Assembly (NCBI RefSeq): GCF_002775205.1
Contig: NC_036453.1
Location: 4,615,103-4,679,102 of the forward strand
Source of the DNA: Xiphophorus maculatus
Taxonomy: Eukaryota > Chordata > Actinopteri > Cyprinodontiformes > Poeciliidae
Length of the DNA stretch: 64,000 nucleotides
Direction: 5' to 3'
The translations under genes and the position numbers were made by a program. The notes under the pieces are model-generated. The model saw only the letters and a program-made list of their open reading frames with translations. It was not told where the DNA came from and searched no databases. Shown here piece after piece: positions 1,892 through 11,569 of the stretch (its first letter is position 1; every line of letters begins with the position of its first letter).

Positions 1892-4849
1892 TTAAATGTT
1901 TTCCTGTTTATGGGGTAACTGAGTCTCTGTTGCTTCTTCAAGAGTACTTTCAGAACTGAAGATTTCTTCTTCAGCGTTCTTTACATCCATGTTGTTCTCT
2001 TCTTTCTCCTTCTTTTCATCTGAATCCTTTGCCCCTCCATCGTCACCCGTGTGTGCTGCTTCATCCTCAGCCTCCTGCACTGATCTCTGCTCATCTGGTC
2101 CTGAAGGACCAGCCTCTTCACAGCACACTTGTTCTGACAGCAAAGAGGAGTTCATAGAGGTTACAGGGGAGAGAGATGGAGAAATGCTGGGCGAGTCATA
2201 TGGGGAGAGAGAGAGTTTCACTTTGGGGGATATAGACGGGGACTGATAAGGTGAGACGGATGGGGAAGAACTGGGAGAGTAGTGAGGAGAGCGGGAATGA
2301 CACGTTTTGGGGAAAAGAGGGGGGGCTCTTGGAGAAACTGTTGGTGACTGGTAAGGAGAAAGCGAGGGAGAGTGGGCACTGACTGCAGAACAAGGCTGCA
2401 TGTAATCATCTAAAAGATGCTCCATTATGGCTGGTAGCTGAGCTAAAGCCATTTCCTGTTTGATGTCGGCTTCAGTGTGGTCCATCTCGCTCTCTGCTTG
2501 GCCCTCTTCCTGTATCTCTGGCCAGACATAAAGCTCTACTGATGGATCCTGCTCAACCTGAAGTGCTGCTCCTTTGGGTTTGACTCCCTCTCCTTTTAAA
2601 TCTTTACATCTCCCTTTGGTTTTAGGCATGAGGGGTGGAGGAGGTGGCGGAGCGAGCGGAGGGGAGAGCGAGCTTGACGTCTCTGTGGAAACTCGAATCT
2701 TTAAGCTGCGTTTGAACATGCGCCTTCTGGAGAAAGCATTCTGTGACTGCAAGAAAAGAGGGTTGATGAAGCAGAGAGCGCCCTGACCGGAGCTGCAGTT
2801 CAGTTCTCTGGGGCTCCGCGTTTTGATCGGACAAAACTCCTGGAACAGAGTTGGATTTGAATCAGATTTAGTGCCGTTTGAGTGGGGTTCAGCTGCACTG
2901 AGCTGGTTCTCTGCATCCGGTTGGAAAACACAGTCTGGCTCAGCTGCACGGTTAGTCTGTAGAAGAACAGGTGGAGCCGATGTTGCAACATCTGGCTTCT
3001 CCTCTTTTCTGGGCTTAGGAGGATCCCGTGGTCCACGGACATTCAGATGGGAACGCCAGAATTCTAGAAAAGAATTGGGATCTTATTATAGTGCACTTTT
3101 CAGTTAATATAATTTAATATATCTTTGAATACAGTAGCTCTCAAAAGTGTGCACACCCCTATTTTATTTGATATGTATTTTGGACTTTAATATATCTTAA
3201 TTTTTAGCTAACTGTTAACCATGTATTAACTTTTAAACATTTTTTATTGTCAAATTTTTTCCATTGCAACAATTTTGCACTTTAATAGGGGTGTGTACAA
3301 TTTCAAAATCCACTGTCTGTGACTGAGTTATGTAATTAAATCCCTTCTTCAAAGCTTCAGACAGTTAAAAAGTAGGTTGCAAAATCTGCTGTGAGGAAAC
3401 GGGTAATTCCCTCACCAATTCCCATGTGGGAGATGGACTCGAGCTCCTTGTGTGATGACGCCTTTGCGATGGCTTCAGGAAGCTCCAGAGGAAAAGGCAG
3501 CACATCTCTGAAATGCAAATGCAACATCCGATCACACAAGACGCTCCGGCACCTAAATATTTAATGATTAAAGATGGAATATAGATAGGAAGAAGAAATT
3601 GATTGAAACAAAACTAGAAAGGAACATTGAGTTTCGCTTTTTTACCTGCTGACACAATAAAAGGAAATGAGTCTAGGGAGATCTGGAAAGCTGATGGCCG
3701 AACTTTCCAGAGACAGAGCTGTTGATAAGAAAAGTACAAAAATGTATCACAGTGGTTAAAAATAGTTTCCACATAACTAGCATATAATGATTTCTGAAAT
3801 AGTTATTTTTGTGAGACAAGACTGACCAAAACATGGGGTTAGAGGTGGAATAATGTTCTTACTGGACTGCTCTTCCCTGATGCCAAACTCCTGAACAAAC
3901 GACGGCACACTGTCATCTGCTAAACGAACACAGAGCACGTTCTTTTGGGATGTGCGCGACTTTCTTACCAGGAACGTCTGTAAGATAAAACTTAATACTG
4001 AATGCAAGAGACTGCTTGGTGAAAAGACATGAATTAAATGTGTATGGTACAGTCAGTGAAAGAGTATTTTTCCTCTTACAGATTTATTCCTATTTAAGAC
4101 AAAGTCATTGACATCTATCAGTCAGGAAGACGTTTCAAATTTCTAATCTAATCTAGGCCATTAATCATGAGTCAACAACAAGACACAGACTGGGCAAAAA
4201 CCAGCGTCCATGGTTTAAGATGAAAACCACCAGAAAATATCTTGATGGTCTCCAGGACTTCTGGAAAAATGGTCTTTGGCGTGGCAATATAGAAGTAAAA
4301 TTAATTTCAGGAAAAAGGTTTCTACTGGCAGTCAAACATGGTGGTAGTGTGATGTTCTGGGTCTGCTTTCTGTTTTAGGACCTAGAAAGCTTGCCCTAAT
4401 TGATGGAGCTTTGAATTCTGCTCACAGTCAGAAAATCCTTAAGAATATTATCTGGCCATTAATTTGTTACCTTGGACTCAAACACACTTGGGTCACGAAT
4501 TGTTTAAACAAGCCATACATGCTTACTTAAAAAATTTTAAGTGTGACAAAAAAGCTAAATCAGGAGTAATCTGTGAGTTGACAAATACTTATTTACAGCG
4601 CTGTGTGCATAACAAGAAAGTGAGAAGCATAGATTTGTGTCAGACCCCAGGAGGTTCCCTCTGCAGAATGTGCAGCGCGTTTGCCGGGTTGATGGACAGC
4701 TGCAGCCAGACAGGAACGGTAAGCAGGAGACGGTCCAACACGCTGATGCTTCTCAGGGAGCCCCTTCCTCTTTGAACCCCCAGGAGTTTACGCTTTGATG
4801 GCTGGGCGGGCTCTGGGAAATCATACAGAGGCTCCTCCTGCTGTGCCAT
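1892..4849 (-). CDS. rin1: RIN-family (Ras and Rab interactor 1-like) SH2 protein lacking VPS9
   Basis: Coding exons on the minus strand: 4849-4646, 3977-3863, 3718-3646, 3507-3416 and 3063-1892; phases join and give 551 residues. The start ATG directly follows a TTTTCAG acceptor, so exon 1 is non-coding. The SH2 domain spans about residues 45-150, with WLQL at 49-52, the phosphate-binding arginine in FLVRKS (R73), then ISFPDLPRLISFYC and VLPFPLELPEAI. The RIN hallmark HMGIEFW and the block GALCFINPLFL (about 256-266) follow, then a polyproline run (about 296-308). Residues about 392-461 are SP repeats of the form SPYQSPTVSP, and the acidic tail ends at TAA. Known RIN1-3 and RINL carry a VPS9 Rab5-GEF domain, and RIN1-3 also a Ras-association domain, after this region; neither is present before dpp3 begins. 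The protein should bind phosphotyrosine and SH3 partners but could not act as a GEF. Neighbours dpp3 and rbm14 support the rin1 assignment; the exact paralogue is uncertain. Confidence 0.82.
3139..3305. mobile_element. Short MITE in rin1 intron 5
   Basis: About 20-base inverted ends (AAAGTGTGCACACCCCTATT on the left; AATAGGGGTGTGTACAATTT on the right) bound an AT-rich 165-base segment with no ORF. It lies just upstream of the last exon of the RIN-like gene in the transcript sense. Confidence 0.65.
4135..4622 (+). mobile_element. Decayed Tc1-like transposon remnant in rin1 intron 2
   Basis: Plus-strand segments resemble fish Tc1-like transposase coding sequence: a stretch reading GTCAAACATGGTGGTAGTG, followed by CTTGCCCTAATTGATGGAGC, and a tail reading GACAAATACTTATTTACAGC that looks like a Tc1-type end. 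The frame is broken many times and the DDE core cannot be read through. It is internally shortened (about 490 bases versus about 1.3-1.6 kb for a full element). Confidence 0.75.
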
Positions 4850-5358
4850 CTGAAAACACACACTCACACATCAGTAACTACACTGTTATTAGCTGTACCA
4901 GTAATGATCAGGCGGTCCCATTATAGTGTTGATTATGCCTTAGTCAATAAGAAGGGTGAGACTGCTCCACATTGAGACACACACGCAAAGAAAATCTGTC
5001 TGGATTTGAACTGCAAGTCCAGACTTGGTCAACTGGAGCAGCTCAGAGAGAGAGAGAGAGAGCTTAATGAAATGGCAATTCAAGTCAAAGCCTAAACAGA
5101 CAGAAAAGTCTGACATCACATCATATTTAATAATAAAACTAAGTGTCAAACATCAACATCTTTATGTCTATTCTGTAGAAACGCTACCGACAGCATGAAG
5201 GCCAACATCATTCTGACTGCGCGCATGCGTTCATAAAACTTCCACTTTAAAGAGTGGAAACTATCTCAAACTCTATCTTTTCCTCAAGCTCTAATCTTGT
5301 CATTTAAGTCTGAACAGTTTAAATATTAAGATTACCAGATGGTTTTAAGTCTATGTAC

Positions 5359-5957: not shown

Positions 5958-6036
<79 letters not shown>

Positions 6037-6737
6037 CGTGTGTGTGTGTGTGTGCGTGTGTGTGTGTGTGTGTCTTAAAACATGCGAAACAAACATGATT
6101 TGCTGTTCACATGCATTGATGAAACCTAGATTTTTGCTACTATTTTTTTTATTTAATTCCCAAATACTCTCCTGGTTTTTTGTGTTATGAGTGATGTAGC
6201 TCAAATCATTCAACTCTAAATGACTATTCTTAAAGAAAGCTGAAAAGAGCCATATGTGGGGAGCACAATATGTTGGTTTGTTTCTGTAAAATGCTATGGT
6301 GTAAATAATTGATTTATAGGCAAAAATCTTTGCTTTTATTGTATCTTCTTAGTTTTGGAGTAGCCTATTGTTATTTTCCTGCAGTTCAATGGCGAGTCGG
6401 GGTGACCGGAACTAATTGGCTGTTAAAGGAAAGTTTACTTGAAAATCCGAAGAACAAAATTTATACCCGAAAGAGTAAAAAATAACTATTATTGACTATG
6501 ATTGATGTTTTAAAATATCTCTACTGTTTTAGTTGTGGAAAAACTCTAAACAGAATAATTTTTAAAACATAACGTAGTTTAATTTTAATATAGGTTACAG
6601 CTGAACACGTTTTTGTGACGTTTTGTTTGTAGCCTCTGACAAGTTTTTCTTCAAATAAACAAATAATCTTATTATTAGTTATTAAAACTACAAAAATCTG
6701 CTTTTTATGGCAGTGCTACTTTTTTTCTTTTTGTTCC
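5480..6737. other. Divergent intergenic region between rin1 and rbm14
   Basis: The 1.3 kb between the two outward-facing genes holds an AT/GT microsatellite and AT-rich sequence. No conserved exon was recognised. GC-richer patches near 5400-5540 and 6740-6790 are the likely promoters. Confidence 0.5.
5960..6073. repeat. Compound microsatellite (TA)n(TG)n
   Basis: About 29 TA units run into about 28 TG units with two GC interruptions. Such alternating purine-pyrimidine DNA is prone to length change and Z-DNA formation. Confidence 0.97.
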
Positions 6738-7421: not shown

Positions 7422-10400
7422 ATGAGCGGTGAGAACGTGAAGCTGTTTGTGGGAAACCTTCCTTTAGATGCTACTCAAGATGAACTAAATAAGCTTTTCG
7501 CTCCTTATGGAGAAATCGACACATGTTCTTTGCTCAGACAGTATGCGTTCGTGACCCTGAAAGGGGAGGGCGCAGCAGACAGGTATGTAACTGTCCATGA
7601 TAGTTATTTGTAGTCAGAAATGGATTGGTGTTTTTGACGTGACGTGTTTTAATAGACTGTTTAATAGACTGTTCTTCCACCTTGGTTTAAATGTAAACTT
7701 TTAAAAAAATATTTTAATTACAGATCAAATAATTGTAGGTAGGAAACTGTGAATGATCTTAATTTTAGTCCGTGAAAACTCTTTTCTGGTGTTCATCTAC
7801 ATTTAAGAATTAAATGTATGATTTAATTCAGTTTTGTTGTGTTATGCTGTGTCTATCCTACAAACCCCTTGACTTTGGGAAACAACAAACCAAGTGAAAA
7901 TTAATTTACCCCCAGTCAGCCAACCCTGTATTTACTACTGACTCATTTAGTATAAAAATGTTTGTATAAAAAGAGGTTTGGCTTAAAAATAGGAATTTCC
8001 ATAGTTTAATAAAACCAGTTAACTGTTATGAAGCAAATTCTAAAAATTGTAGTATAATGTTGAAGTTCAGTAATCAGTAGGTATAAGTTAGACAATATAA
8101 GTTTGTCAAAATATAAGTTTTGACACTTATATTTTGTTAATAAGTAGGTTAAGGATAAGGTGTTAAATATGAACATTCTTAAGGAACTTTAAATAATTGA
8201 AAGGGGGTTAAATTGTTTTAATTAGAATTGGGTCAGAATTATATGTCTTGCCAAAGGACACATGGAAATGTAGCAAGGAAAGGGCTGGAACTGAACCAAT
8301 AACTTCCCAATTAGTCATCACTGTTCCAAATCTGCCCAAAATTGCTTTAATTTTGGATTATATTTGGAAGATTTGTAGCAGCTAGAATACGAAATGTGCA
8401 TTTACAATTTTACTTGTCAAACATTTTAAAAGGTGGAATATGGGCAGATTCCTTTGTGCGTAAGTGGAGTATAATCTCTTGAGTGTTTTGTTAATGAAAA
8501 AGGAAATGCTTCTGTATCAGCACTTCTCCTGGTTGGGTACTTATAACTAGCTTACTCAAGTGTTAAAATTAAATTATGAAACAATTCAATTCTAATTAAT
8601 GACTGCAGGCCCCATGGCCACAATAAATGCCAAAAAGTAAGATGATTCTTCTCATTTTGAAAAAAGCATTTTTTAATATTGAAAACTGTTTCAGAGAACC
8701 ACCTAGAAAATATTTTACTGAAGCATAACTTGCATTGTTAATAAGAATGCACAAAACATTTTAAATGTACATAATCTTTGCTGAGTTTGTCCAAAGTTCT
8801 GATGTTGGTTTCATTCCTTCAGGGCCATACGGCATCTGGATGGCAAAGAGTACAGAGGCAGGCCGCTAGTTGTTGAAGAGTCGCGTGCGCGCCCGCCTAA
8901 TTCCATTAAAGTGTTTGTAGGAAACATCAGTGCAACATGTTCAGCAGATGACCTCCATGGGCTTTTCTCAACCTTTGGAAGAGTTTTAGACTGTGATAAA
9001 GTCAAAGGTAAAGGTATATAAACCAGAATGGCTAGTAATACTCAAAAGAAATACAAAAATAGTCAAGCATTTGTGTCCTGCAAGCTGATGGCTGCAAAAT
9101 TTGTTTTGCAGCAAGATTATGCTCAAATGTTGGGTACGCATTCGTGCATATGGAGAGGAAGGAGGAGGCCCTGGCAGCGATAGAGGCTCTCAACGGGACC
9201 ATGTTCAAGGGCCGTCAGCTGGCTGTGGAGCTTTCCAAAGCGCAACCTTTGATCAATCAGATTCCAGGGGGCGGAGATTCATCTGCAGGCGGAGGTGTTG
9301 CAACTGAAGATGAAGAATCCAGCTTCCTTTCTTTATTTAAACAAATAAAATACAACCTTTCACACTTGTGATCTTTGCTCCTTGCTTCCAGGTGGCAGAG
9401 AGGGTCTTCTTCCACGTCCTCCTCCATCACTCGAACATCACCAGAGTCAAGCGGCTGTGCTAGCTGCTGCCGCTGCTGCAGCCGCTGGCCTGCCCATACA
9501 AGTAACTGAAATAATAAAATTAGCATTTTTAGTAATGGATAAAATCTAATAGTTAATTAACTGTACACCTTCCATTTCATTTTGATACCATTTAGTCAAG
9601 TCAGATTGGAGTTTCATGTCTTTTTAATAATGTCCATAACTCTTCTTTCAGGTTCAACAAAGTGTCCATAACTCGTTTTACAACACAACAACCTTTGACC
9701 CCACCTACGCTGCTCTCAAAGGCCTTACCAGTTCTAAGGGGGCAGACGGGGTGATATATGGTGCTCTTGCCAGCCAGGTGTATGGAGCTGTTGCTGACCA
9801 GGTCTACCAAGAACTGGCCCATCACAATCCTGCGGCTGAAGAGGCAGAGCAACCTGCTGTTCCAGATCCCACAACGCTCTTTGAAGCAGCAAGAGCCAAG
9901 TTCTTTCAGGAAGGACAGAAGGTTAGCTAACTTTTGTATTAAAGCATATTTTGTTAATACAAATTCTTCAAAAAATAAACCGTTTGCCTAATTCATATTT
10001 TTTCATAAAATTTGAATTATAGGTTCTGGCAGAGCAGCAGGCAGGAAGAAAAGCAGCAGCAGCAGCTGCTACATCAGAAAACGAACGAGACCGCAGTCCA
10101 ATCAGAGGAAACCGGGCCCCTCTTCTTCCCGACCCGGTTCCCGGTTCCTTTGCTCAGATACGCCCCAAACGACGCACGCTTCTGCCGACACCACCTGGAG
10201 TCTCTGAAGACGCAGCACCTGCCACCACTACGTCTGAAGGGGCGGATCCTGTTGCTAGGTAACACATTCATTTACAGCGGAGTCTAAAGAAAATAAAATT
10301 TCTATCATATTGGAAGTCATTATCTACTGTTCCCACATAACGGTAACACAGTGATGTGGTGAGGAAAAACATTTTACTGGAGACGCAGCATAGAATGACG

Positions 10401-11569
10401 TACACTGCAAACACGAAATCTTACCAAGTAGTTTTGATTTAGTTTCTAGTGCAAATATTTTAGTACACTGGAAATAAGGCAAAACTAACTTACTAGTAAC
10501 TTGTCAGCAAAAAATACTTTTTTTAAGTCAATAATTTATTAATATTGATGAAAAATTGCTGATTATTACGGAAATAATCTGTCATTGGAACAAGTCATCC
10601 ATTATTTAACAGGATTTTCCTTCCAGGTTTGCGAGAAGCGCTGGTGATTTCCTCCAGCAGTCATTGAGTGAAAGGTTTGGTAGAACAATACATTTTTCCA
10701 TATTATAAGGAAAAATGTAATCCACTAGCAGATTATTTCACTTATAACTAGTTCATTTTCATCAATATTAACGAGTTATTAATTGAAAACAAGCTCCTGT
10801 TTCTTGCTGAAAAACTACTTGTAAGTTTGTTTTGCCGTATTTCAAGTGTACTAAGATATTTGTACTAGGAACTAAACAAAAATACTTTGTAAGAATGTGC
10901 TTTTGAAGTGTAAACTGGGAATAAATATTCTTAAGTTATCTACGTCAAGCCAGAGGTTTTTCCAAGGGTTCTGAAATTCATTAAATATTTTGTAAGAGAC
11001 AAGCTTTTAGTTGTTTTTTCTTTCCCTGCTGCTTTGACTTAGTACTCAACTTGACCTTGCTCTCTAGGTCATACTCAGAATACTACCAGCAAATGCATCA
11101 GTACCAACAGTATCAGCAGTACCAGCAACAGTACCAGTACCTCCAATACGCTTACACCAATCCTCCTCCACCACCACCTCCTCCACCGGGCAGCGCTCAG
11201 ACACAAACCCCTCCCACTACCACCCCTGCACCGCCAGGGACTTACACGGCACCGCCAACTTACGCTTCGACAGACGCCTATGCAGCCCCAGGAACATACA
11301 GCGCTTCAGGAGGTTACGACGCGTCGTCGGGGACCTACGACACTTCATCTGGGAATTACAATGCTTCTTCAGGAAGCTACGACGCCTCGGCAGGATATGA
11401 CACGTCTGGAGGCTACGGTGCATCGGGAGCATATGATTCATCTGGAGCTTACCCAGCAACGGCAAACTACTCCACATCCACACCGTATGAGCAGACACCC
11501 GCACACGGGCAACCCACGCCCCAGCGTCACGATTACCCTTACCACACGCCAGAACCCCCTTACCGATAG
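7422..11569 (+). CDS. rbm14: RNA-binding protein 14-like (two RRMs, prion-like tail)
   Basis: Coding exons: 7422-7582, 8823-9007, 9112-9294, 9392-9501, 9652-9921, 10023-10258, 10627-10674 and 11068-11569; frames join to 564 residues. RRM1 has RNP2 LFVGNL (8-13) and RNP1 RQYAFVTL (39-46); RRM2 has VFVGNI (84-89) and VGYAFVHM (122-129). Then come a Gly-rich linker, an alanine run (about 199-207), the block VQQSVHNSFYN typical of teleost RBM14, and ERDRSPIR as in RBM14. The last exon has Gln/Tyr repeats, a nine-proline run and a Y-[DNG]-x-S tail (YDASSG, YDTSSG, YNASSG). RBM14 (COAA) is a nuclear coactivator, splicing factor and paraspeckle protein whose Tyr-rich region phase-separates. Here the mammalian YxAQ repeats are replaced by YDxSxG repeats. 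The first ATG of exon 2 (7403) opens only a three-codon uORF; 7422 is in frame with RRM1. A tandem donor at 9008/9014 could add two residues. Confidence 0.9.
10403..10910. mobile_element. Fold-back MITE with long inverted arms in rbm14
   Basis: The left arm (10403-about 10583) and the right arm (about 10722-10910) are inverted copies over roughly 180 bases with some mismatches and small indels. The ends read CACTGCAAACACGAAATCTT on the left and, reverse-complemented, CACTTCAAAAGCACATTCTT on the right. TA dinucleotides sit just outside both ends, as expected for a Tc1/mariner-type target duplication. The central 120-140 bases are unrelated to the arms and contain the probable exon at 10627-10674. 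Confidence 0.85.
10627..10674 (+). other. rbm14: Probable 48-base rbm14 cassette exon inside the MITE
   Basis: A pyrimidine-rich acceptor (TTTTCCTTCCAG) and a weak donor (AAAG|GTTTGG) bound 48 open bases in the correct phase (2 to 2), encoding FARSAGDFLQQSLSE plus split codons. Skipping it leaves the frame intact. Whether it is an ancestral exon or an exonised piece is unknown. Confidence 0.55.

Follow-up and report, generated by a model that had tools for sequence, protein, structure and literature searches.

The window analysed here is a 64,000-nucleotide stretch of Xiphophorus maculatus DNA on contig 11 of the genome that was searched (704.3 Mb, 101 contigs). The gene at 7422-11569 encodes two N-terminal RRMs (two RRM_1 matches); for the second of these the best PDB chain is a polyadenylate-binding protein and the second-best is RNA-binding protein 14 (2dnp), and on its sequence the gene is probably rbm14, in an rbm14b-like copy. 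Searches for rbm14 in viral contigs and in prokaryote species contigs turned up no relative. The rbm14 frame is open across eight coding exons, the candidate exon described below included, with two possible starts of the second exon. The upstream coding exon (10023-10258, plus strand, placed by frame and splice scores) ends in GADPVAR and is followed by the donor GTAACA, and the last coding exon (11068-11569, plus strand, placed by frame) starts with SYSEYYQQ and ends at TAG. The last intron, 10259-11067, contains both a palindromic MITE and, inside the MITE, the candidate exon. A long TA/TG microsatellite is found upstream of the gene, at about 5960-6073 of the window.

A paralogue of the gene is located on contig 14, where EDPMAR is joined to YYAEYYQQ across one intron (the splice-like sites there imply this junction); the residues encoded by the candidate exon, 16 in number, are absent. 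When the paralogue intron was searched for a counterpart of the exon peptide, the best stretch scored 21 vs 77 for the exon itself and was not preceded by an acceptor. The exon was thus either gained in the window copy or lost in the paralogue. The two copies also differ in other introns: three short introns of the window gene (9295-9391, 9502-9651, and 9922-10022) correspond to one open exon in the paralogue (locus L051), so these introns were either gained in the window copy or lost in the paralogue. After its second RRM the paralogue (about 3842-4918 of the reverse complement of L051) carries a CCHC zinc-knuckle-like motif, CVNCGKQGHYAGECP, which the window copy does not have.

The candidate exon at 10627-10674 (plus strand) is 48 nt long, has phase 2-2, and encodes the peptide FARSAGDFLQQSLSER with split codons. 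It is preceded by the 3' splice site GATTTTCCTTCCAG (10613-10626, plus strand, 10.4 bits) and followed by the 5' splice site GTTTGG (10675-10680, plus strand, 4.4 bits), the last one or two bases of which are within or at the edge of MITE sequence; both sites were scored with standard matrices, which are averages. In the same scoring two control sites, |e2 and the alternative donor, were misplaced and carry no information. At those splice scores it is the sole in-frame candidate in the intron. A splice-site pair as good or better with an open frame appeared in 1/2000 dinucleotide-shuffled introns, and in 0/2000 when a GC content of at least 50% was also required. The exon has 50% GC, a value attained by 1 of 2120 other 48-mers from rbm14 introns in a comparison whose exon borders were misplaced by as much as three bases. 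The earlier note had described a symmetrical 48-base exon (phase 2-2) and had stated that its skipping is silent for frame; both points were recovered, and the exon has an AG acceptor, a GT donor, and an open frame. It is improbable that there is no exon here at all, i.e., that the signals are due to chance or decay and that the main transcript joins 10258 directly to 11068: such a junction would equal the one inferred for the paralogue and the donor is weak, though its 4.4 bits are close to the 4.8 bits of the neighbouring exon's donor, and the shuffled introns and the GC peak count against chance signals. Judged by these signals, 10627-10674 is very likely a real coding exon and presumably used. 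Internal duplication was considered as a source of the exon and is unsupported, since the best local score was reached by 65/1000 shuffled peptides. The octapeptide SAGDFLQQ is absent from the literature searched.

The MITE occupies exactly 10403-10910 (no strand assigned) and was delimited by its termini, inverted repeats, predicted fold, and genome matches. Its terminal inverted repeats are CACTGCAAAC (from 10403) and TTTTGAAGTG (to 10910), and TA flanks it on both sides (10401-10402 and 10911-10912). An inverted-repeat search returned the arm pair 10432-10514/10800-10882 (84% complementary), nested with it the pair 10517-10589/10721-10793 (74% complementary), as well as a third inverted repeat, a small one with its midpoint near 10704. 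The last of these is the palindrome's own centre, a small hairpin within 10678-10730 (no strand assigned) that was located by inverted-repeat and profile searches. The left arm (10403-10598, plus strand) is 86.0% identical to the family consensus over 193 aligned sites and stops about 11-14 bp before the centre, and the right arm (10679-10910, minus strand) is 86.9% identical over 191 aligned sites, crosses the centre, and reaches about 22-25 bp beyond it. The termini, the arm pairs, and the TA flanks thus agree with inverted arms bounded by outer TA dinucleotides as claimed previously; their lengths, however, are about 196 and 232 bases rather than about 180. The exon does lie in a fold-back transposon as proposed, not at its centre but just left of about 10704, where it interrupts the left arm.

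Terminal inverted repeats and many genome copies identify the element as a MITE: in the same genome 145 matches, the window's own two included, were obtained from the best 40 scored of 4594 first-look candidates. The neighbourhoods of matches were fetched, and after removal of the own locus and five repeats 38 loci were kept, 37 of which yielded 60 half-elements that were aligned from the terminus inward; the fetched copies are the best matches to the window's MITE and not a random sample of the family. In this alignment the left half tracks the family to about 10598, and the right half from 10910 back via the centre to about 10679. A profile search placed model positions 5-199 at 10409-10599 and 3-235 at 10904-10680, and a search with a longer profile agreed with it (10403-10598 and 10910-10680). 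The two arms diverge from the family consensus by 14.0% and 13.1%, and the insertion is therefore old. The TA flanks are weak evidence for a target duplication, because only 16 of 54 ends in other family copies have TA in front of them (18 of 56 counting the window's own); equal flanks of 2-3 bp were seen in a few of the 20 listed end pairs (L012, L021, L025, and L036), most being unequal. Angel-type palindromic MITEs of teleosts are probably similar to the window's MITE. Nothing on Angel elements or on the exon 10627-10674 is contained in the available portions of PMC6796953 and PMC7786948. Two further observations concern the family itself. Loci L010 and L044, on contigs 19 and 6, share, at 100% identity, 1592 bases that hold an array of the same MITE, so that either the duplication happened very recently or the assembly is at fault here. 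The family (loci L002-L043, half alignment inspected by eye) seems to comprise two or more subfamilies, distinguished by their sequence near the centre.

The left arm is interrupted, just left of the palindrome's own centre, by a single-copy segment of 80 bp at 10599-10678 (plus strand; genome search and alignment to copies), which consists of 28 nt of intron ending in CAG, the 48-nt exon, and 4 nt of intron (GTTT). It is bordered by two copies of a 15-bp MITE stretch recognized in the family alignment, ATTGGAACAAGTCAT (10584-10598, plus strand) and GGTAGAACAATACAT (10679-10693, plus strand), which are 10/15 identical to each other. The 90 bases around the exon match only themselves in the genome search, in which the best candidates alone were scored and a diverged source could be missed. 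When five intact copies (394-425 bp) were aligned to the window's MITE, the extra sequence that the window's MITE has next to the centre appeared as one block of 82-97 bp relative to four of them and as two pieces relative to the fifth (L028). Among the 145 matches, own matches excluded, all left-arm matches end at or before 10598, and right-arm matches begin at or after 10678 except one, that of L017. This match aligns from 10659 on, collinear with the right arm, and covers the final 16 exon bases together with the donor.

The L017 match bears on the possibility that the exon is made of MITE sequence, either wholly or in a partial form in which MITE sequence supplies the last 16 exon bases and the donor, the remainder being foreign. 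We consider this very improbable. The exon does lie within the outer ends of the element, L017 aligns with 10659-10678, and the envelope of the longer profile extends to 10660; the profile's alignment, however, stops at 10680, and L017 is alone among the 145 listed matches (the window's own two aside) in entering the segment by more than one base. In an unanchored test of the 80 bp against ten copies, each score was reached by at least 90/300 shuffles, and for the last 40 bases of the segment the lowest count was 34/300. When the alignment was anchored at the arm edge against 19 halves, the best score was equalled or exceeded by 111/300 shuffles and by 204/300 other stretches of the window, and the score of the segment's extension was 15 vs 32-78 for family copies. 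An extension of the right arm into the last bases of the exon was rejected, being one BLAST match (L017) that is no better than chance; the segment is consequently treated as foreign, its last 20 bases being the least certain. As far as copies were compared, the segment appears to be mostly or wholly foreign to the MITE. The idea of a new exon from the MITE interior, which the earlier note had offered as one of two origins, is not supported: the segment is single copy in the genome search and is unmatched by the scored copies apart from the chance-level 20 bases of L017. Derivation of the exon from the element, the mark of an exonised MITE, was not found, with the last 16 bases of the exon the least certain.

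Tentatively, we read the locus as a genuine short rbm14 exon inside one old palindromic MITE that was interrupted by an exon-bearing fragment. We infer the following order of events: one palindromic MITE would have inserted into the last rbm14 intron; a later break would have hit its left arm, 11-25 bp away from the centre of the palindrome; and this break would have been mended with the 80-bp fragment, which brought the exon and its splice signals, with 15 bp of MITE left on either side. Breaks are known to occur at hairpin centres. One element is supported by the complete outer termini on both sides and by the abutting break points. Several findings weigh against it: a repair delivering a whole in-frame exon must be rare; the genome search, in which the best candidates were scored, revealed no source for the 80-bp segment; and the two copies of the 15-bp duplication are only 10/15 identical. 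If the L017 match were real, the exon end would be MITE. Furthermore, loci with a single arm broken near the centre are common among those fetched, at 6/38 (L013, L020, L030, L035, L038, and L043); they end 13-39 bp before the centre, and L035 and L043 retain a short scrap of the other arm.

Such single-arm copies speak for a second reading, which we regard as quite possible: the exon is ancestral to the rbm14b-like gene, and two MITEs of the same family inserted on either side of it, each losing its inner half, with the result that the pair resembles a single element today. Most exons are old, and the composition and acceptor of this one are like those of a settled exon. The arms of the window share three derived sites, compared with 3.7 on average for halves taken from different elements; by the same count, the idea that one arm was copied late and inverted to the other side of the exon was rejected. 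Arm-to-arm identity is 77.0% vs 75.2% expected under independent decay, and this excess of 0.018 is closer to the between-element mean of 0.024 than to the mean of 0.041 within 17 other elements. It is reached by 44% of between-element pairs, and it leans slightly towards two elements but lies inside both spreads. A target duplication is of no use in separating one insertion from two, because it would comprise at most 2-3 bases. On the other side, two half-elements require two insertions, each with a deletion of its own, within 28 and 4 bases of a single exon, with breakpoints overlapping by 15 bp in the palindrome, and the paralogue is without the exon, though loss there is possible. According to PMC2533698, exons are flanked by a zone from which Alus are excluded, similar in length to the ~80-150 nt of conserved flanks, which also counts against two MITEs placed beside an exon. 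One interrupted MITE is thus narrowly preferred to two half-MITEs flanking an older exon, a lean that stems from economy of events and is not proof. That the MITE acquired a single-copy fragment which became a coding exon, so that the exon and the dsRNA hiding it arrived as one package, we consider rather unlikely.

Complementary arms stand on both sides of the exon and are predicted to pair in the pre-mRNA. The RNA fold of 10380-10930 has a predicted energy of -192 kcal/mol vs a shuffle mean of -104 (z -15.3, 0/100 shuffles as good). In the fold of a longer pre-mRNA stretch the arms form 132 predicted base pairs, including an unbroken run of 32. Of the 194 bases of the left arm, 113 have a probability above 0.9 of pairing with the right arm; acceptor, exon, and donor are predicted to be partly unpaired, with mean unpaired values of 0.45, 0.43, and 0.31, respectively. 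Arm-to-arm pairing across the exon, as proposed earlier, is thus borne out in prediction. In the pre-mRNA the arms (about 132 bp) would pair around the exon, keep it in a loop, and shorten the distance from the outer donor to the outer acceptor; pairing would weaken exon inclusion and favour the frame-neutral skipped form, whose junction would equal the inferred junction of the paralogue. Frame-neutral skipping of the exon is plausible on these models, as is RNA editing of the arms, given the predicted duplex with its 32-bp unbroken run. A 48-nt exon is very short for circularisation, and a circular RNA of 48 nt is unlikely.

Strong predicted pairing that spans the exon might suggest that selection maintains the hairpin itself as a device for splicing, editing, or circular RNA, and exons can become alternatively spliced under the influence of inverted repeats in introns (PMC2533698). 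We find this hardly credible: the identity of the arms is no higher than independent decay predicts (77.0% vs 75.2%), it is within the range of 13 other elements (0.62-0.81), and the shortness of the exon speaks against circularisation. Since the pairing of the arms is no better kept than independent decay predicts, the hairpin looks like an inherited by-product and not a conserved device.

The anatomy of the locus is well established, and the existence of the exon is very probable. When an exon lies within a transposon, it has usually been formed from the transposon's sequence; the exon of this locus appears foreign to the transposon around it, which supplies its own looping structure. If the exon is younger than the MITE, the locus would be a traceable case of coding-exon birth with a ready-made skipping switch, in an RNA-binding protein and just before its tyrosine- and glutamine-rich tail; if exon and hairpin did arrive together, the gene would have gained an alternative exon with skipping built into the mobile element that carried it.

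The locus thus presents a MITE hairpin around an exon that is not its own, as far as copies were compared. Inverted Alu pairs, as described in PMC2533698, share with it the principle that pairing between complementary repeats close to an exon can change how the exon is spliced; inverted intronic Alus moved an exon from constitutive to alternative splicing, and in the tested case both Alus were within one intron. The window arms, in contrast, flank the exon left and right at distances of just 28 and 4 nt, derive from a single palindromic DNA transposon or from two halves, and have a predicted effect. With exonised transposable elements the locus has in common an exon within transposon boundaries, but the window exon is at least mostly not transposon sequence. 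Like the palindromic MITEs of teleosts, the element is short, multi-copy, and a near-complete palindrome with termini CACTGCAAAA and A/T-rich arms; unlike them, the window's copy is interrupted near its centre by a single-copy segment that bears an exon.
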